Positions 11,900 to 24,327 of a DNA stretch of 47,613 bases are shown here, piece after piece. Positions within the stretch are counted from its first letter, which is position 1. Every line of letters starts with the position of its first letter. The notes under the pieces are model-generated. The model worked only from the letters and a program-made list of their open reading frames with translations, did not search any database and was not told where the DNA came from. Source of the DNA: Clostridiales bacterium (GTDB taxonomy: Bacteria; Bacillota; Clostridia; Christensenellales; CAG-314); assembly GCA_022508375.1 (NCBI GenBank), contig JAFLVJ010000009.1, positions 1 to 47,613 on the forward strand. Reading direction: 5' to 3'. The position numbers were made by a program, and so were the translations under genes.

Positions 11900-12613
11900 A
11901 TGAATCTATTGGCTTTTACAAAATCATTTGCTGAAATTTTCAGCGGCCCCATTGTAAACGTCAGCTGGGAAGACGAGCTGGTAGCGTTGCTACGTGTTTT
12001 CATCGCTGGTCTGTTTGGCTTGATAATGGGCTTTGAACGCAAACGCCGTCAAAAAGAGGCTGGACTGGCAACGCATTTCATCGTTGCGGCAGCCTCGGCT
12101 CTGTTTACATGCATTTCCACCTCTATTGCTGCAGGCACCGACGCAGGTGTAGATGGCGAACGTATTGCGGCACAGGTAGTTTCCGGTGTTGGTTTCCTTG
12201 GAGCAGGCATGATATTCTTCCGCAGAGAAAGTTTGCGCGGACTTACCACCGCTGCGGGTATTTGGGCAACAGCAGCAATGGGAATGTGCATTGCCATGGG
12301 GCAAATAATTGTTGCCACGGGCGTATTGGTATTGATATTGGTTGTACAAACGATACTGCACATGAAACGCATCCGTCGCAACAATATCCATATGCTTATG
12401 GTTAAATTCAGCTACACGGAAGAAAACAAAACCAAATTGATGGAATATTTCGGCGTGGACTCGTTCCATCGCGTAAAGTTAACCAAGTTGGACGAACGCA
12501 CGCTAGCCGAGGCGGTAATATACCCCAAAGAAAAATTTTCTGCGACGGAGTTGTACGCTTTTATGTCGCAAAACCCCGAAATCGACTCCGTCGAGCGCCT
12601 CGAGGACCTGTAA
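11900..12613 (+). CDS. MgtC/SapB family membrane protein
   Basis: A 237-aa inner-membrane protein. Residues about 25-150 form the MgtC core: hydrophobic helices with the signatures 'GLIMGFERKRRQKEAGLATH', 'ERIAAQVVSGVGFLGAG' and 'LRGLTTAAGIWATAAMGM'. These are the family's hallmarks. A soluble C-terminal domain of about 80 residues follows. MgtC proteins are linked to magnesium limitation and control of the F-ATPase, but their biochemical activity is unsettled. The gene has its own promoter and a strong terminator, so it is probably monocistronic. Confidence 0.9.
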   Translation: MNLLAFTKSFAEIFSGPIVNVSWEDELVALLRVFIAGLFGLIMGFERKRRQKEAGLATHFIVAAASALFTCISTSIAAGTDAGVDGERIAAQVVSGVGFLGAGMIFFRRESLRGLTTAAGIWATAAMGMCIAMGQIIVATGVLVLILVVQTILHMKRIRRNNIHMLMVKFSYTEENKTKLMEYFGVDSFHRVKLTKLDERTLAEAVIYPKEKFSATELYAFMSQNPEIDSVERLEDL

Positions 12614-12694: not shown

Positions 12695-13288
12695 TTAAAA
12701 GCTCATTAGATCATAAAGAATTAAATAACAGTACTTAACTACCTCATATTCACTATCCCCAGGATTCATATGTCCGTGTATCAAGCAATTACGCACTTGA
12801 TATATAATTTCGAATAGACCAGCAAATACCTTTTCCACATCGCTAATTATGTATAAAGTTTCCAGTTTTAACACGTCATCTTTTTCAGATTCAAAAACGG
12901 TACCATCCTTTTTGAGATGTGGCGTTTTAATAAGATTCGTCTTATCATCCTTGTTATTATAATCACAAACTGCGCTCTCCATAGAAATAATACCTAATTT
13001 ATCTGAAGAAAGCATTGCATCATTTAAAGCATAGTGAAGTTGTTGTATATTTGACTTGAATATTTGGTTTTCTTTTGCATCTCCCTCAATCAACACCTTG
13101 AATTGTTTGTATATGTGATTTCTTTTGGAGTAATCAGACTTTACTTTATCTATTAGAACCCTGTCTTTAGTACCAAATTCCGCATAATGATACACATACC
13201 AAGCGTTGCACGATAGCCATAAGTTAACAAAAGGAGCAAAGTAGTCTATTTTTGCTTTTGCAAACCATTCTTTTCTAAATTCTGGCAT
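12695..13288 (-). CDS. HEPN-like protein, third gene of the restriction-modification operon
   Basis: A 197-aa all-helical protein with the HEPN signature R-x4-H at R166-H171 (RNCLIH) near the C-terminus. HEPN proteins are commonly metal-independent RNases in toxin, abortive-infection and restriction islands. It lies 10 bases after the specificity gene with a strong ribosome site (aggagaaat), so it belongs to the same transcript. The family cannot be named by eye; it may be an RNA-cleaving effector, a back-up toxin, or a non-catalytic partner. Base composition is as AT-rich as the rest of the operon. Confidence 0.6.
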   Translation of the reverse strand: MPEFRKEWFAKAKIDYFAPFVNLWLSCNAWYVYHYAEFGTKDRVLIDKVKSDYSKRNHIYKQFKVLIEGDAKENQIFKSNIQQLHYALNDAMLSSDKLGIISMESAVCDYNNKDDKTNLIKTPHLKKDGTVFESEKDDVLKLETLYIISDVEKVFAGLFEIIYQVRNCLIHGHMNPGDSEYEVVKYCYLILYDLMSF

Positions 13289-13298
13289 ATGATTTCTC

Positions 13299-14639
13299 CT
13301 ATTCTTGTACTTCTAGCCAAAGCAATGCCGTTTCTTCGCTTGTTTCTATTGCCATTTCAACAGTTTGTATGGCTTTATCCAAAAGATGGTTAGCTATTTT
13401 GCGCAATCGGGATGATTCGCGCACTTTATCGGTAATTTCTTTTTGCACGTTTTCTTCAAACATAGGTATTGGTAAATTCAATACGTCTTTGTCTTTTATT
13501 ACAGGGTAAGAAGTCCCCACGTTAAATTTCAACAGCCAATCCCGATAAGTTGAAGTGCGCAACAATACTTGCAAAATTTCCGTTGAATAATCACTTTTCG
13601 GTCGTAGCACGGTAAATGCACCACTTACAAGCAAATTGTTTTCCTCAAGAATTGCTACAGCTCCACGGTTTGGACGGACGGTAGATACAAGAATGTCACC
13701 GCAGCACGTCATAATTTTCGCATTATCCGGTAAATCCTCTGTGTTAATTGTATTGTAGGTATAACTGCCGTTTCCTACGTTAATATCTCCGATTTCCACA
13801 TACTTATATTGTCCCAAGCTCTTGGAACATTTTTCCGTAACTAACTGGAATTTATCGTCTATTGTAGTGAAGCCATTTGCATAATTTTTTATTGATTGTT
13901 CGTATTTATCATATTTCGGCTGATAAAACTCCGCATCAAAGCGTCCCGACTGCAAAAAACTATCAGAAGATTTTCTTACAGAATAAGTGTTGTTTTCACT
14001 GTTTGAAATATCCAAAAGCCCATTTAGCAATATTTCCGCGTCTTGTATTGCCTTATCAGATTGGGCAAGCAACTGTTCCGCGTTTAACACCATCTGTTCT
14101 ATTGTGTTTTGAAATTCTTCAGACAACAACGGCACTTTAATATCCTTGATCTTGTATATGAACAGGTTAGGTTGAACATTTCCCGTTGTAAAACGTGCCG
14201 TTTGGTAACGACCGTATTTTGTTAATATGAAAGAAGATAGGAAGCGAGGCTTAAACTCCGAATCGAATATTCTTATTATTCCGACATGCCTATCTGCATT
14301 AGCAGGTAATACGCGTTCATTTACAACAGCACAGTTGCCTATAGTACCTACGGTCGAAACGATAACATCATCTTTTCTCAACTGCGTTCTGGGATTTGCT
14401 GTATTTTGCGCTTGTGATATATGTCCGGTACTGCTCAAGTCGAAAACATTATTTTTAGGTGCCTTAGCCGAAATTAAATTTATCTCGGAATTATCGTCAA
14501 AATCTATACTCTCATGTATGCCATCTGTAACATCAGCAAATTTAACGATTTTCTTCCAACTTTTTTGATCAAGTTGTTCTTCTGCTTTACGGTAAGCTTT
14601 CAATACATACTCGCTATCTATGCGATTGTCTGCATACAT
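13299..14639 (-). CDS. Specificity (S) subunit of a BcgI/AloI-like restriction-modification system
   Basis: A DNA-recognition subunit with two target-recognition domains, each followed by a conserved helical spacer: 'LLAQSDKAIQDAEILLNGLL' mid-protein and 'LRKIANHLLDKAIQTVEMAI' at the C-terminus. The first ATG (14639) seems too late. The same frame stays open upstream and reads conserved-looking S-subunit sequence ('LTDGLEISEIRYSS') back into the methylase gene, with no ATG, GTG or TTG in it. The natural product is therefore probably a fusion made by a -1 shift at the T7 run at 14729-14735, or an 8-T phase variant. Downstream is the HEPN gene. Confidence 0.8.
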   Translation of the reverse strand: MYADNRIDSEYVLKAYRKAEEQLDQKSWKKIVKFADVTDGIHESIDFDDNSEINLISAKAPKNNVFDLSSTGHISQAQNTANPRTQLRKDDVIVSTVGTIGNCAVVNERVLPANADRHVGIIRIFDSEFKPRFLSSFILTKYGRYQTARFTTGNVQPNLFIYKIKDIKVPLLSEEFQNTIEQMVLNAEQLLAQSDKAIQDAEILLNGLLDISNSENNTYSVRKSSDSFLQSGRFDAEFYQPKYDKYEQSIKNYANGFTTIDDKFQLVTEKCSKSLGQYKYVEIGDINVGNGSYTYNTINTEDLPDNAKIMTCCGDILVSTVRPNRGAVAILEENNLLVSGAFTVLRPKSDYSTEILQVLLRTSTYRDWLLKFNVGTSYPVIKDKDVLNLPIPMFEENVQKEITDKVRESSRLRKIANHLLDKAIQTVEMAIETSEETALLWLEVQE

Positions 14640-14722
14640 TGAAGAATACCGTATTTCACTTATTTCTAGCCCATCCGTTAAAACCTTGTATTTGGCTTCA
14701 TCGAAATGTTCAACAGACGGGC

Positions 14723-14735
14723 TTATTGAAAAAAA
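14723..14735 (-). other. T7 slippery run and stop at the methylase/specificity junction
   Basis: In the methylase frame the gene ends AGT TTT TTT CAA TAA. T-TTT-TTT matches the X-XXY-YYZ slippery pattern. A -1 step there (or one added T) skips the stop and enters the open specificity frame. This would fuse the two proteins into one chain of about 1,130 residues. No downstream stimulatory structure was checked by computation. Confidence 0.55.
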
Positions 14736-16699
14736 CTTAAACCTTCTTTTTTGGCGAATTCAGCAAATGCTTCGGCAATACCATCGCCTGTTATTCCGTC
14801 ATGGTTGTACAAATCCTGCTCGACCACCAAATGCCCATTGTCGTCAAGCGCCTTTGTCCCGTCAGCCCTCTTTACATATATGATGTCACCGCTGTTATCC
14901 TTACCCGGCTTTTGCTGTGTGGCAAAGAAAATATTGTAGTCGTCTTTACGCGGGCAAAGTACATCGTCCCATTTTTGCACAAATAATACACTGGTTTTTG
15001 TACCGGTATGAGGCTTAAACGTGTTACCGTGAAGACCTACAACAGCCAAAATGCGACATTTTTCAGCAATATACTCACGAATATATTTGTCACTACTGTT
15101 ATTAAATCTGCCCTGTGGCAATACAATTGCCATTCTTCCGCCCGGTTTTAGAAAATCAATATTTCGCTCAATAAACAAAACATCTCGCCCAACTTTGTTT
15201 TGAGTATTGCCTTTTTCATTCTGACCAAGCTCATATCTGCTGAGTATCCGTTTCTCCTTGATATCCCCTGCAAAGGGAGGATTAGCCATAACTATATCAA
15301 AATCGAATTCTTGATACCCGTCTCGACTCAAGTCCTTTAACCGCCAAAAACCTTCCGAATATGTACGTAGCCAATCTTCTTGTTTTGCGGTTTCATCCCA
15401 ACGTTCAAAGTCAAGTGTATTGAGATGCAATACGTTTGTGTGTCCATCACCGGCAATTAAGTTAAGTGTACGAGCAACACGCACGGCTTTTTCGTCAAAG
15501 TCTATACCGAATATATTTTCTTTTACGTAATCGGTGTAATCAGCAGGCTTTTCATCAAGTGAAGCCAATTCACCTTTCGGTCTGCCTTCTTCATCAGCTA
15601 TTTTGTCCCACACATTGAAAATCGTATGCACCGGAAACCCACTACTTCCGCATGCGGTATCAATCATCTTTTCATCTTTGTGGGGGTTAAGCATACGCAC
15701 ACACATTTCTATTACATAACGAGGCGTAAAAAACTGGCCCTTTTCTCCTTTGCTTGATTTGCTCATCAAATATTCAAAGGCATCGTCCACTACCTCAAGA
15801 TTACTGTTGAACAATTTAACGCTTTGAAGCGATGCTACGCAAATCGAGAGATGGGAAGGAGAGAGCATTATTTTTGTGTTTTCCTCAAACACACCTTTCC
15901 ACTTTTTATTCGCTGCATTAAATAACTCTTGTGTTGCAGACTTCAGTTCGAATTCTGTACGTCCCGCGTTGGTAAAATCAAGAAAACGTGAAGGTTTCCG
16001 TCTGCTCATGAATTCATCGTACAGTTTTGCGAATATTAGTTTGAAGCATTCTTCAAAAACATCCACACCGGCATTTGCGAGAACTTCGTCTTCCAAATCT
16101 TTGATTTTATCTTTAAGCGAAATTTTATCTTTTTGAAGAACATCGTTCTCCTTTAAATCCTTTATTGTCCAACGTTTGGATATTACATCCATGAGTGTCT
16201 GACTTGCCTTAGGAATATCACGGATTTCTTCAAAGTAGTTTGGATCTTTACGATTGTAATAGGCAATTTGCTCGCCATTACACCACACTGCAATTGGTGC
16301 GCCGGTACTATTACAATAACTCTTTAACTGCTCCTTTCCATCTTTTAACTTCGGTTTTTTCACTTCAATTATTATGTATGGTGATTCTACATGCTCTTTG
16401 TCCATAATAACAATATCCGCGCGTTTAATTTCACGTCCAAAGTGTACGGGAAATTCCAATTTCATTCTGGACACAGGATACCCGTACTCATTTATAAGTT
16501 TATCGATTAGTAACTGACGAACAACTTCTTCAGGCTTCAATGTAATCTGTTTTTTTCTCGCAAGACAATCGACAACACCATAATGTTTGCCTTTTTTATC
16601 TTCCTTATCAATAATTCTGTTATTAAGAGTTTCAATGCTCTCTTGACTAAATTGGTCGGTTTTGTATGCACTGTCTTTCAAAATATCATAAATAGTCAT
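14723..16699 (-). CDS. Restriction-modification protein: HsdR-N-like nuclease fused to N6-adenine methylase
   Basis: A 658-aa protein joining two domains. Residues about 1-200 resemble the HsdR N-terminal nuclease, with a PD-(D/E)xK-like core: Asp about 95 in 'RADIVIMDK' and 'IIIEVKKPK' about 109-117. Residues about 290-640 are an N6_Mtase domain with motif I 'DTACGSSGFPVH' (about 343) and catalytic NPPF (about 473-476). No helicase is present, so it resembles type IIB/IIG enzymes (BcgI A subunit, or AloI) rather than classical type I. The start is chosen at ATG 16699 after gaggttaatt. An upstream frame extension crosses the promoter and is rejected. Confidence 0.85.
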   Translation of the reverse strand: MTIYDILKDSAYKTDQFSQESIETLNNRIIDKEDKKGKHYGVVDCLARKKQITLKPEEVVRQLLIDKLINEYGYPVSRMKLEFPVHFGREIKRADIVIMDKEHVESPYIIIEVKKPKLKDGKEQLKSYCNSTGAPIAVWCNGEQIAYYNRKDPNYFEEIRDIPKASQTLMDVISKRWTIKDLKENDVLQKDKISLKDKIKDLEDEVLANAGVDVFEECFKLIFAKLYDEFMSRRKPSRFLDFTNAGRTEFELKSATQELFNAANKKWKGVFEENTKIMLSPSHLSICVASLQSVKLFNSNLEVVDDAFEYLMSKSSKGEKGQFFTPRYVIEMCVRMLNPHKDEKMIDTACGSSGFPVHTIFNVWDKIADEEGRPKGELASLDEKPADYTDYVKENIFGIDFDEKAVRVARTLNLIAGDGHTNVLHLNTLDFERWDETAKQEDWLRTYSEGFWRLKDLSRDGYQEFDFDIVMANPPFAGDIKEKRILSRYELGQNEKGNTQNKVGRDVLFIERNIDFLKPGGRMAIVLPQGRFNNSSDKYIREYIAEKCRILAVVGLHGNTFKPHTGTKTSVLFVQKWDDVLCPRKDDYNIFFATQQKPGKDNSGDIIYVKRADGTKALDDNGHLVVEQDLYNHDGITGDGIAEAFAEFAKKEGLSFFQ

Positions 16700-16730
16700 A
16701 ATTAACCTCAAGTAGTTGTTTTTTATATTG

Positions 16731-16759
16731 ATTATAGCACTTTCGACAGATATTTGCAA
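16731..16759 (-). promoter_or_regulatory. Promoter of the restriction-modification operon
   Basis: Minus strand TTGCAA (16759-16754), 17-base spacer, TATAAT (16736-16731) with a TG extension. The start is near 16724, 25 bases before the ATG. Confidence 0.8.
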
Positions 16760-16871
16760 TATGTTACACATTCACTACAATAACACAGTATTAGCCCACA
16801 CCACCGAATAAATGATTGGTGTAATGCCAATTCCATTACTTCTTTTCATTCATGATTGGTAGCGAAACTCC

Positions 16872-16899: not shown

Positions 16900-16940
16900 C
16901 ATTGTTAAACATTTGCCGATCGAGTTTACGAGCGAACGCC

Positions 16941-16985
16941 AGCTCCAAAAAAGCACCGCGCATTGTAAGCGGTGCTTTTTTGGAG
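16941..16985. terminator. Symmetric 18-base-arm terminator abutting the distal tRNA-Thr fragment
   Basis: GCTCCAAAAAAGCACCGC pairs perfectly with its complement at 16968-16985 around a 9-base loop. The GC core followed by six T works on both strands. Its right arm includes the first bases of the tRNA-Thr fragment, so it probably derives from the original tRNA terminator. Confidence 0.75.
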
Positions 16986-17029
16986 CTACTAACCGGATTT
17001 GAACCGGTGACCCCGTCCTTACCAAAGAC
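16976..17029 (-). other. Distal attachment site: duplicated 3' end of tRNA-Thr
   Basis: Bases 16976-17024 are identical to 20661-20709, the 3' part and flanking T run of the intact tRNA-Thr; after one mismatch four more bases match. The 5' half of the tRNA is missing. This is the usual footprint of site-specific integration into a tRNA gene 3' end. Confidence 0.85.
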
Positions 17030-17109
17030 GATTGCTTTTTTCAAAAACCACAATAACTTGTATTTTTTGCATATTTTCAACCCTATATCTTGTATTTTTT
17101 AACAAATCA

Positions 17110-17268
17110 TGTGCCAATGATGTGCCTATTTTTTAGTTTTGGGCAGTTCCAAATCGTTTTAGACAGTTTTAGCGTCCTTCCAAAACATCACATAAAGATA
17201 ACGTAAAAATAAACAAAAAATGACTTATTGGCACACAAAAGAGGTATTTTGGACACCGTGTGCCAAAT
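17110..17268. repeat. GTGCCAA-type repeats near the distal attachment site
   Basis: TGTGCCAATGATGTGCCTAT at 17110-17129, TTGGCACAC near 17228 and GTGTGCCAA near 17259 (the last two inverted). The first block matches the one at 20539-20559 at the other end. Placement fits arm-type binding sites of a tyrosine integrase. Confidence 0.55.
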
Positions 17269-17311
17269 GCTATTTTACAATTTTAATCAAATACAATACA
17301 GAACTTATGCT

Positions 17312-18406
17312 TCATGATTTTTTATGATACAGTTTGAGTGTTTTATACATTCCCCAGTATGCCTTTTTGTCACTGTACCACAGACTAACTAACTGTAACA
17401 AATCTTTCATTCCTTTATCATTGATACATAGTTCATACTCACCATATGTAAGCCGTGCATAAGCAGTATTATCAAACCCATTGATGTAATTATTTCGATA
17501 AATTGCTATGGCGTTTGACAGCGCCTGGTCAAATTCCGTATTTCCATCCAATGTAGCAATGACATCTTCGTCTACTGACATCAAAGAAAGCACCATTGGT
17601 AAATATAAGAGCTTTGCTCCTCGCTCAATCAATGGCTTTATAATGGGGCATAATAACATACTAAATCTACCACTACCATATACGATTTGAGAAAATAGTA
17701 AATCCTTTGATACTCTTGGTAATGCTTCGAACAATGCAATCAAACAGTCTATTCGTTTTTGTTCGGTTTCTATTCTGTTGTCGTTGGACAATATTTCTAA
17801 TACTTCTTGTACGCGCAGATCCAACTTGAAAGAAAATATCCTGTTTAATTCCCATTCAAGGGCTGTTCTGTTATTGAACCCTAAGGTACTTGATAGTACA
17901 TCCCGAATGCTATCGTATCTATGTTCATTATTGAAAAATACAATTGGTTCAGCAAAATACTTGCTAGCATGAATATTGCAATTATAGTATTTCAGCAAAT
18001 ATTCTAATTCAGCATTTTCTTCGGTTGTTATTTTGAAAAAAATACGTTTATAAATTAAGTCTTCAAAACGTTCGCGTACTGTTTTTATACGCAGTAGCCA
18101 ATAGACAATGACATCATAATCACCAACGTCAATACTTTGTTGCAGTGCGTTTTCGTCTATATAATATAACTCGCCGAGTCTTTCTGTAATAGGTTGTTCT
18201 TTTTTCTTACCACTTAAAAGTTCATCTATCGTAACGCCAAACAATTCCGATAGCTGGTACAGCTTTTCAATTTTGATTCCGCCACCGTTTTCACATTGAC
18301 TGATTGCAGATGATGACACTCCTAATAATGCAGCCAAAGTTTTTTGATCCATTCCAATACCTTCACGTAATTCACGAATAAAGTTTCCCAATTTAAAGTT
18401 CCTCAT
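17312..18406 (-). CDS. HTH (XRE-type) protein with shared C-terminal domain, island gene 3
   Basis: A 364-aa protein. Residues about 6-64 are a Cro/C1-type helix-turn-helix ('QKTLAALLGVSSSAISQCEN'). The remaining 300 residues are helical and unrecognised. They share patterns with the preceding island gene: 'KDLLFSQI' at 234-241 versus KDLLLAQI there, and 'PLIERGAKL' at 258-266 versus LLIKSGAKL. The two proteins are therefore likely paralogues. Its ATG overlaps the previous stop by 14 bases with its own ribosome site (ggagaaaagat). A repressor role is plausible from the HTH. The large conserved tail suggests a sensing or effector function that cannot be named. Confidence 0.7.
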   Translation of the reverse strand: MRNFKLGNFIRELREGIGMDQKTLAALLGVSSSAISQCENGGGIKIEKLYQLSELFGVTIDELLSGKKKEQPITERLGELYYIDENALQQSIDVGDYDVIVYWLLRIKTVRERFEDLIYKRIFFKITTEENAELEYLLKYYNCNIHASKYFAEPIVFFNNEHRYDSIRDVLSSTLGFNNRTALEWELNRIFSFKLDLRVQEVLEILSNDNRIETEQKRIDCLIALFEALPRVSKDLLFSQIVYGSGRFSMLLCPIIKPLIERGAKLLYLPMVLSLMSVDEDVIATLDGNTEFDQALSNAIAIYRNNYINGFDNTAYARLTYGEYELCINDKGMKDLLQLVSLWYSDKKAYWGMYKTLKLYHKKS

Positions 18407-19907
18407 ATCTTTTCTCCACGGGAAAGTATTTTTTTCGAATTTCTTCTAGCGATAGCGTATCTATTTCTTCAAGCAATTTTGCGGTCAAATCAGAATTTCT
18501 GCTCGCCTTATATTCTGCGTATGACATAATGGACATCCGACTTAAAATATCATTTTCTGTCAATACATTTTTCTTTTCTCCAATCCATTCTGTGTATTCA
18601 AGCTCTTCTAATTGTTCGCCGGCATTCCACAATTGTTCTAACCTTTGCAGTTCACGCCTTTGTGCTGCTACTTTTTTTTCTGCGTCTTTACATTTTTGCC
18701 AGGACTTAATATCACCCACGCCAATTCGTTCTGCCAATAGCAATTGCTCTTTACGGCTCATATTTGGTTTCATATATTCCTGATATCGTTCGATTAATAT
18801 ATTTTCAGGAATTTTTTCATTTTTTATAAAAATCTCGTATAATTCATCAAGTGATAATTTTTTGCAATCCTTTCGAGTGCAATTCAGAAAATAATACAGA
18901 TCAATTAGTCTGTTTTTCGTGCTGTTTTCCGCCCAATAAAACTCCAGACGATTTTTTTCGCTATTATATGAAGATAGTAGTATTTTTGCATCAAGAAGGT
19001 AGTGTAGCTTTTCCATTTCATCTAAAATGGAAATAGGCTCGTATCTGTACACTTCAAAACCAAGTAATGACGAATTTAATTTAGCGCCACTTTTAATTAA
19101 CAATTTAATTCCTTCTTTTGTTATGCGCTCTTCATCGTAATCAATGCCGTATTTTTTTAAATACGTAAGTTTGTCGTAAAAATCGGTAATATTATGTGTC
19201 TGAATTTGGGCAAGGAGCAAATCCTTTTCCCAATCTTCCAATTCTTGTAGCAGTTTTTCGGTCATAGGAATGTTTTCTTCAAACCCACATAGATCTCTTT
19301 CAAATTCTATTCGTTTGTCGTAATCAAACAATTTTTTAACTTCCCAATATATTTCATCGAGTGAACTTCCATGCATCGACAAAATTTCGCGGTAAACTAC
19401 ATGTCGCAATAATTTCGTTTGATTGTTGGCATAATTTTCTAATTCACCGTATGATTGCTTAGCATAGTCACTGATGCTATAAAAGTTGTCAAACAAAAAG
19501 TTAAGCTCGTCATTTTGCATCACTGTTAGTGATTTCTTGTCAATAAGCTCTAACAGCAATTCTTTTACCCTAGCCTTTATTGTTCTTTCTTGTTCAATGC
19601 GAGTTTTATACAGCTCATCTGCGGAAAAGCGTTCAAACCACTTGGAATTGACAATAAAATATTTTTCTTCAAAATTTTGCGGTGTATATATTTCGCCATT
19701 CAAAATGTCAGAAACCTGTACCCCATAATACTCGGCAATAATATTGAGCTTATCCATGTCAGGAAAATTGCCTTTTTCCCACTTCGCTATGGTTTTATCC
19801 GATACTTCTATTCCATAATCAAACAAATCCATTGCTACTTGAAATTGTTTTTTGCCTTTCCGCATTCTTAGAAATTTTAGAAACTGACCGATTTTGCTCT
19901 TATCCAT
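18393..19907 (-). CDS. Large HTH (XRE-type) protein, island gene 2
   Basis: A 504-aa protein. Residues about 6-70 are a Cro/C1-type HTH ('GIEVSDKTIAKWEKGNFPDM', then 'YYGVQVSDILNG'). The roughly 430-residue C-terminal part is charged, helical and not recognised. Segments near 110-145 and 228-277 parallel the following gene, indicating a common domain. A coiled-coil-like stretch ('KKVAAQRRELQRLEQLWNAG') lies in the last quarter. It overlaps both neighbours (8 and 14 bases), giving tight translational coupling. No enzymatic motif was seen. Unusually long for a simple phage-type repressor. Confidence 0.7.
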   Translation of the reverse strand: MDKSKIGQFLKFLRMRKGKKQFQVAMDLFDYGIEVSDKTIAKWEKGNFPDMDKLNIIAEYYGVQVSDILNGEIYTPQNFEEKYFIVNSKWFERFSADELYKTRIEQERTIKARVKELLLELIDKKSLTVMQNDELNFLFDNFYSISDYAKQSYGELENYANNQTKLLRHVVYREILSMHGSSLDEIYWEVKKLFDYDKRIEFERDLCGFEENIPMTEKLLQELEDWEKDLLLAQIQTHNITDFYDKLTYLKKYGIDYDEERITKEGIKLLIKSGAKLNSSLLGFEVYRYEPISILDEMEKLHYLLDAKILLSSYNSEKNRLEFYWAENSTKNRLIDLYYFLNCTRKDCKKLSLDELYEIFIKNEKIPENILIERYQEYMKPNMSRKEQLLLAERIGVGDIKSWQKCKDAEKKVAAQRRELQRLEQLWNAGEQLEELEYTEWIGEKKNVLTENDILSRMSIMSYAEYKASRNSDLTAKLLEEIDTLSLEEIRKKYFPVEKRYEEL

Positions 19908-20298
19908 AAATAGCTTCCTCTATCATTTTGTCGCACTGTCTTTCCAATATTTTTCTGCGTTTCATTGCATAATCCACATTGCGTTTTTTTCTAAAAACTG
20001 TTAGCTGGTTTTCGCGTTTAATATCTTCCGGCTTTGCAGCTCCGAATAATCGCTGCTCAGTCGAATTGGTAACTTTAAAGTAGTAATCGTCTTTATTTAT
20101 TTCAACGCCCTCACAAAATTCATTTTGTGAGATTTGTTTGACATAGAGTATTGCATCTTTGTGATGATGCTTTACCCTTGGAAAATAACGCACCTTCAAG
20201 GCAGCTTCCTTCCCTGAAGAAGCTTCGACGTAAAACTGTTTTTCTATATAGTGATTTCGACCGACGTGACCACATTTTGCTCTAACTTTGTAGTACAT
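19900..20298 (-). CDS. Small conserved-looking protein with CGHVGR motif, island gene 1
   Basis: A 132-aa basic protein, first gene of the island operon. It begins 'MYYKVRAKCGHVGRNHYIEK' and contains 'PRVKHHHKDAILYVKQIS', a histidine-rich stretch. The N-terminal half (about 1-75) looks like a compact beta-rich domain, and the C-terminal half is very basic (RKKRNVDYAMKRRK), suggesting nucleic-acid contact. One Cys and several His do not make an obvious zinc site. Ribosome site caggaggta precedes the ATG. Its stop overlaps the next ATG by 8 bases. Function unknown. Confidence 0.65.
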   Translation of the reverse strand: MYYKVRAKCGHVGRNHYIEKQFYVEASSGKEAALKVRYFPRVKHHHKDAILYVKQISQNEFCEGVEINKDDYYFKVTNSTEQRLFGAAKPEDIKRENQLTVFRKKRNVDYAMKRRKILERQCDKMIEEAIYG

Positions 20299-20360
20299 TT
20301 TACCTCCTGTACCAGTATGTGAGCCAATTGTATCACGGTAATTATTTCTATGAGCGATAC

Positions 20361-20383
20361 ATTAATTTAACATTTAAATTAAT
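20361..20383. promoter_or_regulatory. Perfect inverted repeat in the island operon leader (candidate operator)
   Basis: ATTAATTTAA, three bases, TTAAATTAAT, about 38 bases downstream of the TTGACA promoter. It is a symmetric site suited to the two HTH proteins encoded by the same operon. Confidence 0.45.
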
Positions 20384-20420
20384 TGTAAATTTATTTTTAA
20401 GTTTTAGTAGAGTTGATAAT

Positions 20421-20449
20421 ACAATACATCATTTGGTAGACTTTGTCAA
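20421..20449 (-). promoter_or_regulatory. Promoter of the island operon
   Basis: Minus strand TTGACA (20449-20444), 17-base spacer, TATTGT (20426-20421). The leader to gene 1 is about 115 bases. Confidence 0.65.
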
Positions 20450-20538
20450 TCAGTTACAGTTTTGGTTATCGCAAACACGTGATTTGTTCTATTAAATACT
20501 GTACAAGGACGCGAATACATGCTCGCATCCCGCAAAAA

Positions 20539-20570
20539 TGTGCCAATTTGTGTGCCTATCGTGTGCCAAT
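20539..20570. repeat. GTGCCAA-type repeats near the tRNA-side attachment site
   Basis: TGTGCCAAT..GTGTGCCTAT (20539-20559) followed by GTGTGCCAAT. It is nearly the same block, in the same orientation, as 17110-17129, and lies about 100 bases inside the attachment core. Confidence 0.55.
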
Positions 20571-20637
20571 AAGTCAAAATTGGATGATTTTAGTCAAATA
20601 AGTGGTTGAAATTCCCTAAATTTATTAAAAAAATAAG

Positions 20638-20665
20638 AAAAAACCGCCCTAAATGGGCAGTTTTT
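20638..20665 (-). terminator. Terminator of tRNA-Thr
   Basis: AAAAAC-C-GCCC / GGGC-A-GTTTTT hairpin immediately after the CCA end, with six T on the minus strand. Confidence 0.8.
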
Positions 20666-20740
20666 GGAGCTACTAACCGGATTTGAACCGGTGACCCCGT
20701 CCTTACCAAGGACGTGCTCTACCTGCTGAGCCATAGTAGC
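20665..20740 (-). tRNA. tRNA-Thr (anticodon GGT)
   Basis: A 76-base cloverleaf. Acceptor arms GCTACTA/TAGTAGC, D arm GCTC/GAGC, anticodon arm CGTCC-TTGGTAA-GGACG giving GGT, T arm ACCGG-TTCAAAT-CCGGT, encoded CCA. It is the intact target copy of the integration described at 16976-20709; the element restores the 3' end sequence, so the tRNA stays functional. Confidence 0.96.
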
Positions 20741-20922: not shown

Positions 20923-23900
20923 TTACTTAGCCTTTTTCTTTTTCAATACAACGATGACTGCTGCGACAACGCACAATGCAATCAAGCTAGTCGCTACCAC
21001 TATTGCTACTATAGCCGCTGTGGGAAGTCCTGAATTGTCGGCAGGGTTTGTGGGGTCAACAGCGTTGATAGTTACATGCATTTCCTCACTTTCTGCCGAA
21101 TATGTAGCAAACATTGAGGCAGATGTTAACTTCAACACGTACGTTCCGGAGTCAGATACCTGAGCGTTGCGTATAACGAGAACGGAACTTGTTTGATTCT
21201 CTACCAGTTTACCGTCCTTGTACCAGCGGTAAGCAGTTGATCCAGATACTTCAAGCGTCGGTTCCAATCTCAGCTCTCCGCCGGCATCCATTGTTACGCT
21301 CTTACTAGCTTCAGCAACGGTAACTACCGGTTGTTTTACTTCCTGTTTGACAATAACACTCGATTCGTTGTTCATTGCTTGCTTTTCAAGTATTTTCTTC
21401 GAAACAAATTTTACTTCAACAAAGTTGACGCCTTTCGCAGACAAATGTTCATACGCAAGTGAGATAGAATATGCCGTTTTGCCTACAGCATCAGCCATTG
21501 CCTCGCCGTTAAGCATGATAGACGCTATTTCATAGCCTTCGTGCGCATTAACACTTACAACCTTGCTACCGTCCTTGTCAACGCGGAACATGTTGCCCAC
21601 TTCTTTGTCGGTTAATTCAGTTGCAGTAGCCACACCACCAAAATTGTTAGAAACGATAACGGATTTTGCAGTGTTTGCTTCATCGGAATCAGCAGTTGCT
21701 GCAACGATAGCAAACGGACTGAACGATTTGCAAAGCAGTACCAAACCAAGCGGTGTTACCGTACATTCGATTTCCTCGACATCGACAACTTGATCTCTCT
21801 TGTCTCGAATAAAGTGATACGCCTTAAACGTTACGCCATTCATTGAATCGTTGTAAGTAAAGCCTTCGGGGAAGCCCACGCACACGCGTACACCTTGACC
21901 TGTTTCCAGAACTACAGACTTGCAAATAGTAAGCGTGATATTGTAGGTGAAGCTTTCCAAAATGTCTTCATCAAAGGTGTCCTCAACCATATCCATCATC
22001 AGTTTATCTTGCTTTTGAGAGGGTTTGGTTACGACAAGCGCAAATCTGTCCTTGGACTGGCTAACGTCGGTACCGTCAGCTGTCTCCCAGCCTTGCTTGG
22101 ACAGATCTTCTTCTTCCATAAGCCTCGGTTGACCAAATACGTTCCAATGGTAGCCGTATGCTTTGTAGCAAAGAGCTTCGCACTCATGCCCCACAGCATA
22201 GGTTGCGGGATTGACTTGTCTGTGCGAGTTGACTCCTTCAAGGTTAAAGTTGAAGTAGTACATGACGCTGTCATACGCCCAATCTGCGTAAGGAGTAAAC
22301 TTAAAGGATACGCTTCCACATCTGTAGGAACCGTCAGGAAGCTTTTCGCCTAGGTCGTACTTGATGCTATTCACGTCGATGCAGTCATTAAACCTAACGG
22401 CGTTTGTTCCTTTCATAATTTCGCCCGTTGCGCGCATTCCGTAAACGGACATTTGAAGCTCCGTTGCGCCGTCCATAAATTGAAGCATCTGGTCGTACTC
22501 AATCGTTATACTCCAAGTACGCGTTCCGTTGGAAGGTATATCAAGCCTACCTGTCATGGCGGGGGTTGCTCTTACGATATGCGGAGCAGGTTGATAGTCG
22601 GGATCGCCGAATTGAGTTTCAATCAAGCCCGAGCGAGCAAGGAATATTGACATGTCGCCCGTGTAGGAAAGCATTTCTGCGGCTTCGTCAGCCGTATAGC
22701 CCCATCTGTCATCCCAGTCATAAGGACGAGGAGCCCTAGTCGTCAACGCAAATTCAAAGCCGGTCGATTTGCTCTCATCTTGAATAACGGTGTATCCTTC
22801 GCCTTCCTGAATGTTGGGGTACATAGGATATGGCTCACGTATGGGATTAAGATAAGCCCAAACCAAAGTTGATATACTGTTAGACTTCACTTTTCCATAT
22901 TCGAAAAGGTACTCATCGTCCCCAATACCCGATAAATCCTGTTGGTTCTTAATCTTTTCGGGCAGATAGTCGCCTTCGTAGCGTACGAGAATGTAGTAGC
23001 CTTTCGCTTCTGCTTCGGCGTAACCGCACCACTCGCCGTCAATCAGCACGCTTACGTAAATGTTGGTGGAATCAAGGTTGGTACTGTATGGCGTTTGAAC
23101 CACCTTAAACATACCGTGCGTAAGGCTGATCTCGCCGCCAATGTTTTGTTGGCTGAGTTCGGGATAGGTGAAAGGGTACTCTGCTTCCGACTTGTAGGGG
23201 CTGGTTACATGTTGAGTGTTCATGTAAGCTGCGCCCTTTAGGAAGTAGTCTTCACTGTACAGATAACCTAATTCATCATCATAGACGGTTTTTTCCATGT
23301 CCTTGTTTTCTCCACCTAATGTGTTTGGTAGATCGTCAAGGGGTGTTGTTCTTGAAATTAACCTCGGGTATTTTTCCGGCGGGTACTTTACTAAATCGTC
23401 ATAGTTAAGGTCGTCGAACGTCGGGTCCACTGCATACCAGCTTCCGTCAAGTTTAACGTAAGTCCACATATGTACTTCTTCTTGATTTTCACCGTGACGG
23501 TACGCGCCGTTTACAAGCACGCAAGGTACGCCCAGTTCGTCCATTATTGCCTTGAACGCGCGGCTGTAGCCTTCGCAAAGAGCTTTGCCCTTTATAAACA
23601 CGCCGTAAGGAGTTCTTACGTGTCCTGCGTCGTCGCCAGCTTCAGTTTCAAGTCTGTACGTAGTGCTTATTGCTACCTGTCTGTGCGCTTCTCTGATTTG
23701 CGCAACCTTAGCAGCAAGTTCATTACCAAGCGTTTTAACCTGACTGTTGGTAGGTTTAGCGGCTTTGGAAGCGGTAACAGACTTGCTGAGTGCCGTTTTG
23801 TACTCAACTATTGCTGCTCTAACCTCTGCTTCGCTGTTAAAGCCTTGCGTCCAGTAGGTGTCCGACCTGCCTACACCAAGATATGCGTGGTACTTGCCAC

Positions 23901-24303
23901 TAGTATCCTGCGTTACGCGCAAGGAAAGATATCCAAAGTCAACGTAAAAAATATCATCGTAATCTGTGTAAAACGCGTCGCGAGCTGCTCCCATAGCGTT
24001 AAGAAGAGTCATATCGCCGTTAGCGTACGCCTCGAGCTGAGCCTGCGTAACATGACCGCCCGCTACAAGGTCGTAATCTTCGCCCTTGATGAATATTTCA
24101 TTCGCGTTCATTGCTTGCATTGCCTTGTAGAACTCTTTTTGCTCGGTTGTGTTGAGCTGTGCGCCGAAGTAATTGTCAACGTTTGACAATTCGGCAGCTA
24201 CTGCTCGATACGTTCCTACGCCAAATACGCCCACTGCTATAAGTGCGGACAGCATAAAGCAAGCCAAAAGCGCCAAGCCAATCAGTTTTTTTGATTTTGT
24301 CAT
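20923..24303 (-). CDS. Secreted transglutaminase-like protein with Ig-like domain and C-terminal anchor
   Basis: A surface protein of 1,126 residues. It has an N-terminal signal peptide (KSKKLIGLALLACFML...) and a transglutaminase-like fold with the full triad: Cys243 in 'KALCEGYSRAF', His278 in 'EVHMWTYV', Asp293 in 'AVDPTFDD'. A long unrecognised middle follows, then an Ig-like domain ('YRWYKDGKLVEN', 'SDSGTYVLKL') and a final membrane helix followed by KKKKAK. There is no LPxTG, so anchoring is by the helix. It could cross-link or cleave peptide bonds in wall or host protein. Start taken at ATG 24303 after ggaggtatat. It follows the M3-like peptidase by 24 bases and may share its transcript. 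Confidence 0.82.
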   Translation of the reverse strand: MTKSKKLIGLALLACFMLSALIAVGVFGVGTYRAVAAELSNVDNYFGAQLNTTEQKEFYKAMQAMNANEIFIKGEDYDLVAGGHVTQAQLEAYANGDMTLLNAMGAARDAFYTDYDDIFYVDFGYLSLRVTQDTSGKYHAYLGVGRSDTYWTQGFNSEAEVRAAIVEYKTALSKSVTASKAAKPTNSQVKTLGNELAAKVAQIREAHRQVAISTTYRLETEAGDDAGHVRTPYGVFIKGKALCEGYSRAFKAIMDELGVPCVLVNGAYRHGENQEEVHMWTYVKLDGSWYAVDPTFDDLNYDDLVKYPPEKYPRLISRTTPLDDLPNTLGGENKDMEKTVYDDELGYLYSEDYFLKGAAYMNTQHVTSPYKSEAEYPFTYPELSQQNIGGEISLTHGMFKVVQTPYSTNLDSTNIYVSVLIDGEWCGYAEAEAKGYYILVRYEGDYLPEKIKNQQDLSGIGDDEYLFEYGKVKSNSISTLVWAYLNPIREPYPMYPNIQEGEGYTVIQDESKSTGFEFALTTRAPRPYDWDDRWGYTADEAAEMLSYTGDMSIFLARSGLIETQFGDPDYQPAPHIVRATPAMTGRLDIPSNGTRTWSITIEYDQMLQFMDGATELQMSVYGMRATGEIMKGTNAVRFNDCIDVNSIKYDLGEKLPDGSYRCGSVSFKFTPYADWAYDSVMYYFNFNLEGVNSHRQVNPATYAVGHECEALCYKAYGYHWNVFGQPRLMEEEDLSKQGWETADGTDVSQSKDRFALVVTKPSQKQDKLMMDMVEDTFDEDILESFTYNITLTICKSVVLETGQGVRVCVGFPEGFTYNDSMNGVTFKAYHFIRDKRDQVVDVEEIECTVTPLGLVLLCKSFSPFAIVAATADSDEANTAKSVIVSNNFGGVATATELTDKEVGNMFRVDKDGSKVVSVNAHEGYEIASIMLNGEAMADAVGKTAYSISLAYEHLSAKGVNFVEVKFVSKKILEKQAMNNESSVIVKQEVKQPVVTVAEASKSVTMDAGGELRLEPTLEVSGSTAYRWYKDGKLVENQTSSVLVIRNAQVSDSGTYVLKLTSASMFATYSAESEEMHVTINAVDPTNPADNSGLPTAAIVAIVVATSLIALCVVAAVIVVLKKKKAK

Positions 24304-24327
24304 ATATACCTCCATTTTTAATTATTT

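Follow-up and report, generated by a model that had tools for sequence, protein, structure and literature searches.

An integrase-less island at a tRNA-Thr gene of a Clostridiales genome carries a recurrent three-gene cassette

The DNA analyzed here (the window) is a stretch of 47,613 nucleotides, the whole of contig JAFLVJ010000009.1 (positions 1 to 47,613), from the 1.63-Mb, 89% complete metagenome-assembled genome (MAG) of a Clostridiales bacterium (GCA_022508375.1). It contains a 3.68-kb island (3684 bp, 16977–20660) bracketed by the 3' half of a tRNA-Thr(GGT) gene. ARAGORN identifies an intact tRNA-Thr(GGT) at 20665–20740 and a second, decayed copy at 16981–17057, both on the minus strand, and the two loci share a 54-nt direct repeat (16977–17030 vs 20661–20714) that is identical at 53/54 positions and, over its first 49 nt (16977–17025), at 49/49. 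An exact 49-base duplication of the tRNA-Thr 3' end, reported in a preliminary description of this sequence, is thus confirmed. The GC content of the island is 0.34 vs 0.463 and 0.457 in the flanks, and the interval is occupied by three open reading frames (ORFs), all on the minus strand, encoding 132, 504 and 364 residues. The island and its edges comprise the following features:

16941..16987, no strand assigned: terminator hairpin of the original, empty chromosomal site, with 19-nt arms, overlapping the att repeat
16977..17030, minus strand: attL, displaced 3' half of tRNA-Thr(GGT) (ARAGORN and direct repeat)
17312..18406, minus strand: gene C, 364 aa, Xre-type helix-turn-helix (HTH) plus an unnamed domain common with B (ORF and Pfam)
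18393..19907, minus strand: gene B, 504 aa, Xre-type HTH plus an unnamed domain common with C (ORF and Pfam)
19900..20298, minus strand: gene A, 132 aa, AKCGHVGR...PRVKHHHKDAI domain (ORF and family comparison)
20421..20449, minus strand: putative A-B-C promoter, TTGACA-17-TATTGT (by consensus match alone)
20639..20665, minus strand: terminator-like hairpin supplied by the island, behind the regenerated tRNA-Thr (hairpin prediction)
20661..20714, minus strand: attR, within the intact tRNA-Thr(GGT) at 20665–20740 (ARAGORN and direct repeat)

The three genes overlap in the order A, B, C, by 8 nt where A ends and B starts and by 14 nt where B ends and C starts. The region contains 19 promoter-like sites of the kind placed upstream of A, with 15.6 expected, which is no clear excess over chance. 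Genes A, B and C fill the unit; Pfam recognizes no recombinase family among them, and no relaxase or VirB-type match. A search of the island with 34 integrase queries likewise finds no convincing remnant, the best match (E 0.043, 23% identity over 79 aa) lying inside B. ORFs, Pfam and integrase queries therefore bear out the earlier account of about 3.7 kb with one three-gene operon and no recombinase. Rfam finds only the tRNA, and comparison of the island DNA with phages and plasmids yields short matches only, to the tRNA-Thr end, except for phage contig MT836975.1, which also matches the displaced tRNA copy.

The preliminary description proposed a search for an empty tRNA-Thr site in related genomes, and such a site is present in three congeners, G009, G016 and G025. 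In G009, homologs of the 1130-aa protein encoded at 20923–24315, the tRNA-Thr, and the MgtC-family protein (PF02308) encoded at 11900–12613 adjoin one another, in the order MgtC gene, terminator, tRNA-Thr, and 98 bp separate the tRNA from the aligned end of the MgtC gene. G016 and G025, also without the island, have the MgtC gene at the tRNA 3' end too, 274 and 160 bp away. The left flank of the displaced copy (16910–16976), terminator hairpin included, aligns to the G009 site, and removing one unit restores the G009 junction: when three 266-base stretches are compared with that site, the simulated excision of 3684 bp scores 186 and the occupied junctions 130 and 160. The case for the structure of the island is strong. 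Within the genus, the tRNA query matched 23 of 25 genomes, 20 regions from 17 of these were retrieved, and scoring as empty or occupied covers the three empty sites, G022 (occupied by another element) and five rearranged congeners. In the latter (G017, G018, G019, G021 and G024; L066, L071, L074, L075 and L077) the MgtC gene lies 5' of the tRNA-Thr, which indicates that the locus is inverted or rearranged there.

Tandem copies of most of the tRNA-Thr occur in G014, G017 and G019 (L073, L074 and L078) at a spacing of ~145–164 bp, and these are possibly scars of repeated integration. The window lacks a repeat that was noticed by eye near congener tRNA-Thr sites. The tandem fragments do lend something to the idea that the repeat in the window arose by chance or by a local tandem duplication of tRNA-Thr, the genes between the copies being unrelated. 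That idea is extremely improbable given the displaced terminator, the GC shift and the end-specific motifs described below, and in our view the empty site in three congeners already refutes it.

A second difference from G009 lies outside the island. Type I restriction-modification (R-M) genes at 12695–16771 separate the MgtC gene from the old terminator; G009 lacks them. They comprise an M gene (14723–16771, with an HSDR_N domain), an S gene (13299–14639) and a 197-aa ORF, at a GC content of 0.373; no R gene is recognized among these ORFs, and none was sought elsewhere. Located outside the tRNA repeat, they are a separate insertion and not part of the island.

The repeat block extends from the 3' end of the tRNA to the anticodon stem, and its sole mismatch falls immediately after the 7-nt anticodon loop TTACCAA, where crossover within that loop would leave the boundary between chromosome and element. 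Such a crossover would be the work of a tyrosine integrase. The preliminary description suggested that repeated GTGCCAA blocks near both ends are integrase arm sites. The generalized motif GTGCCWA occurs at four places within the island:

17111..17128, plus strand: left-end arm-type motif pair, GTGCCAA at 17111 and GTGCCTA at 17122 (motif search)
17228..17234, minus strand: left-end arm-type motif, inverted (motif search)
17260..17266, plus strand: left-end arm-type motif (motif search)
20540..20569, plus strand: three right-end arm-type motifs, at 20540, 20552 and 20563 (motif search)

Seven of the 10 copies in the window are found within 280 and 366 bases at the two island ends. The total is at chance level (11.25 expected), so the clustering at the ends is the relevant property; in 2000 dinucleotide shuffles of both ends, never more than three copies appeared. 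The paired pattern GTGCCWATN{1,18}GTGCCWAT is present three times in the 1.63-Mb genome, always in the island, and its reversed control is not present at all.

The same motif is found beside integrase genes elsewhere in the order. In G309, four GTGCCWA motifs lie between a tRNA-Ile and an integrase gene (PF00589 and PF14659), at a locus that resembles an integrative and conjugative element (ICE) because of ArdC-like, DNA methylase and TraG P-loop matches. G057 has two motifs, flanked on one side by a tRNA-Thr(GGT) and on the other by the end of an integrase that is split into two ORFs. The G309 array recurs in near-identical form at G235 (at a tRNA-Ile) and G067 (where only a stretch like the tRNA-Ile 3' end is present), and the 34 integrase queries have no match in the 14 and 12 kb available there; integrase loss with the arms left behind thus seems to happen. 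Two additional tRNA-Ile 5' halves were observed upstream of the intact tRNA-Ile at L328 7320–7464 and L329 6346–6489, both motif-bearing sites.

The tRNA-Thr of G022 is the same integration site occupied differently. The element there encodes a 464-aa integrase, AbiEii, HsdR, HsdM and HsdS, with an additional sub-threshold AbiEi-type match; it is split over two contigs that were joined by inference. Like the island, it has repeated blocks at both ends by eye; unlike the island, it has its own integrase, an AbiEii and type I R-M cargo, and blocks that read GTTTGCTA and not GTGCCWA. The G022 and G309 integrases share 36% identity over 419 aa and form one family, which suggests that the missing integrase has a relative acting at this site and another acting with this motif. 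A larger integrase-bearing element, for which the preliminary description proposed a search, thus exists at this tRNA-Thr, and none with the ends of the island plus an integrase was found in the genus and order scans.

Scanning the order for the paired pattern gives matches in 28 of 392 genomes, own included. Among the 25 genomes of the genus, the paired motif occurs outside the own genome only in G016 and G023, away from tRNAs. At least 120 stretches of viral contigs contain the arm pattern, and 80 of these, compared with 31 integrase queries, give weak matches in two only (L227 and L280). Further GTGCCWA clusters, of six copies in G336 (L331 4726–4935) and four in G111 (L332 312–582), have no tRNA and no integrase recognized by eye.

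Among the cargo proteins, B and C align as paralogs over 251 columns (probability 99.3) and have in common the HTH and ~190 further residues. A 12-member B/C alignment matches 37 Pfam families, of which the first 25, the ones listed, are nearly all HTH-type, and its members match 16 PADLOC families, mainly of regulator or candidate type (match positions not given). With the individual proteins, PADLOC-DB 2.0.0 gives no match to A or B up to E 0.1 and matches C within residues 5–86 only; without a model match outside the HTH, A-B-C is not a known system of that database. Across Pfam, PADLOC, PHROGs and NCBIfam, the matches of B and C are confined to the HTH, except for PHROG family 8 (regulator), which aligns with B residues 5–235, and A has no family at a convincing threshold. 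The closest known proteins named, for gene A only, are the eL20/LX ribosomal proteins and RNA polymerase epsilon (YkzG), and A may resemble the rRNA-binding protein eL20/LX in fold. B and C are probably DNA-binding proteins that act together, since their genes overlap here and the B-C pair is present at all six loci discussed below. The A-B-C operon is undescribed within the literature searched and these four family libraries.

The B-C pair occurs at five loci besides the window, in genomes of the order or named Clostridia MAGs, with a complete A directly upstream at four; L177 has an A-like end only, by eye. Of 396 genomes in the order, five, the own genome among them, matched a scan with B minus its HTH: the matches in G243 and G353 are clear; G131, not counted among the five loci, has a B-C pair adjoining a tRNA-Arg with no A detected; and G272, the fifth match, was left out of the locus comparison. 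A scan of genome contigs confirmed five distinct loci, two of them, judging by length, on the same contigs as G243 and G353. The closest relative, L174, shares 64% identity in A, 64% in B and 58% in C, and its DNA is 68% similar to the island over 3021 bp, corresponding to A-B-C (17317–20309 of the window) and nothing beyond. This limit makes the operon look like the moving cassette.

None of the five relative loci has a tRNA in the stretch available, and no flanking att-like repeat was seen. The preliminary description had counted any occurrence of the three genes outside an att-flanked context against an island, and literally taken A-B-C does so occur. The cassette therefore appears to be its own module, and this does not weaken the island, since its boundaries were set from the empty site. 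The same loci bear on the idea that the island is a satellite by design, of a minimal lineage that never had an integrase and always used that of a helper. Its content of cargo and both arm sets only, and the coincidence of the L174 similarity with the A-B-C limits, would suit such a satellite. It is nevertheless improbable: no second island with these ends was found at tRNA-Thr in the 25 genus genomes or the order scan, the sole tRNA-Thr case in the latter (G057) has integrase ORFs, and A-B-C stands elsewhere without tRNA and att repeats where checked.

The distribution of A-B-C is narrow and patchy. When 341 genomes of the class and 338 of the phylum were scanned with the B alignment (E up to 1e-15), only the own genome yielded a full-length match; the own C matched at positions 2–239, and the remaining rows fell within positions 1–105, the HTH end. 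At most four candidates were scored per genome in these scans, so that distant members may be missed. With C alone as the query nothing was confirmed in genome contigs, and the L174 C, 58% identical, was missed in this way and found later with B, showing that the pattern scans are not exhaustive. B has no relative in phage or plasmid records at E 1e-5 and none confirmed in viral contigs. The A family is wider, occurring in 18 of 396 genomes, own included; A matches one phage record (PV036423.1) and no plasmid, and its alignment has no confirmed relative in viral contigs.

Three of the five relatives (L174, L176 and L177) have defense-type neighbors, a count from neighbors chosen by the authors and with no background rate. 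L174 lies beside MzaB- and MzaC-like proteins, a C5 methyltransferase, a DUF2357 protein and a PLD/helicase protein; L177 adjoins T5orf172 and an AAA_11/12 helicase; and L176 adjoins HipA (10 chosen neighbors scanned at each).

The preliminary interpretation, either a very small satellite with a borrowed integrase or a cargo operon that outlasted its vehicle, is supported. The best reading of the island is that it is a cis-mobilizable element (CIME), a known kind of element. CIMEs keep attL and attR without integration or transfer genes, as in Streptococcus (PMC5704250, PMC7563491); those with cargo measure 1.2–13 kb, and some are located at a tRNA-Lys 3' end (PMC7563491). The island matches those accounts in having attL and attR (the 54-nt repeat and the empty site) and no integration, conjugation or mobilization gene. 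It differs from the CIMEs described there in standing alone, with no tandem ICE or integrative and mobilizable element (IME) in the window, and in carrying an undescribed operon. CIMEs derive from ICEs or IMEs by deletion, and the same motif occurs at the ICE-like tRNA-Ile locus of G309; no direct ancestor was found. In Dehalococcoides, 15 islands without an integration module are described at the tmRNA gene ssrA and proposed to be perhaps cis-mobilizable (PMC3146451). They involve a serine recombinase and ssrA, whereas the motifs here are of tyrosine-integrase type and the site is tRNA-Thr. The island is not an ICE, IME, prophage, phage-inducible chromosomal island or P4-like satellite with its own integrase, as it encodes none.

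It is fairly likely that the island is a CIME inserted by a tyrosine integrase and carrying A-B-C as an accessory cassette tied to the response to invading DNA or phage. An integrase of the PF14659 and PF00589 kind would have recombined within the anticodon loop to insert the unit, using the GTGCCWA blocks as arm sites, and the unit may now move only via the integrase of another element. Mobility through a borrowed integrase is plausible. Less securely, A-B-C would be a self-contained cassette in which B and C form a paralogous DNA-binding pair and A is a small partner, most likely sensing or regulating a response to invading DNA or phage. A role of this type is favored by the restriction, helicase or toxin-antitoxin genes around three of five relatives and by the R-M and AbiEii genes at the same tRNA site in a congener, and a defense or defense-regulating role of the cargo is a lead from gene context. 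A bolder version is held only tentatively, namely that A-B-C is a three-component anti-phage or anti-plasmid system of two paralogous DNA-binding proteins that share an unnamed domain and a small ribosomal-protein-like partner, spreading as a bare cassette that here rides on a tRNA-Thr unit borrowing an integrase.

Several observations weigh against the CIME and its proposed cargo function. The choice of the GTGCCWA motif followed inspection of the sequence, and the island ends give no significant result in an unbiased k-mer test. A tRNA is present at three of 29 arm-pattern loci checked, which we estimate to be about chance for 3-kb loci; the support therefore comes from the geometry in G309 and G057, not from this number. 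The own genome has two tyrosine integrase hits. The surrounding 13 and 18 kb contain no tRNA and, in each case, three scattered GTGCCWA copies but no cluster, and for these reasons both were dropped as helpers; the second (L122 8301–9530, G000:C23) stands in a small gene group without a tRNA. No helper integrase with the arms of the island was found in this 89% complete MAG. That absence, together with the G309-type arrays at G235 and G067, is what would be expected of a dead remnant of an ICE, IME or prophage, immobile after deletion of its integrase and transfer genes. A dead remnant is a serious possibility, though short of an even chance, as the core repeat has stayed identical at 49/49 nt, seven arm motifs persist at the ends, and no fragment of an integrase or transfer gene was found in the island. 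The identical core and persisting arms fit, but do not prove, a recent or still mobilizable unit.

On the cargo side, no catalytic domain is recognized in A, B or C, and L135/L175 and L136/L178 have no clear defense neighbor (nine chosen neighbors scanned). None of the scanned neighbors matched at L135; at L136, a radical-SAM/SPASM protein matching viperin models was discounted, as it stands beside a sulfatase, and so was a marginal further match. Members of the A family elsewhere are not in defense-looking settings: L172 is beside a WYL regulator and L165 near nrdD (NRDD). A-B-C may then be a general transcription-regulator operon, for example for control of host or mobile-element genes, with no defense role. 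The recognized domains are HTH, a PHROG regulator family covers much of B, and the A family elsewhere lies by WYL-type regulators (one checked), in nrdD/nrdG clusters and in a phage; set against these are the defense-type neighborhoods of three relatives and the narrow, patchy distribution, and a purely regulatory operon is possible but on the doubtful side.

Integrase-based island finders readily overlook small islands that lack this gene. Whichever role the cargo has, it is cleanly testable, because the island is delimited to the base and contains a single operon. The new part is the A-B-C cargo itself, a recurrent cassette with three of five relatives in defense-type neighborhoods and an A protein without a convincing family match.

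Further members of the A family were observed in diverse arrangements. The setting of A in L170 resembles that in L165 by eye. An A domain ends a 506-aa protein at L171 7627–9147, which has no Pfam match and an HTH-like start by eye, and at L158 8673–10798 a 576-aa protein with a kinase-like (APH/RIO) match has A directly downstream. The A homolog of the gut phage PV036423.1 (L138 7009–7416) adjoins annotated anaerobic ribonucleotide reductase genes.

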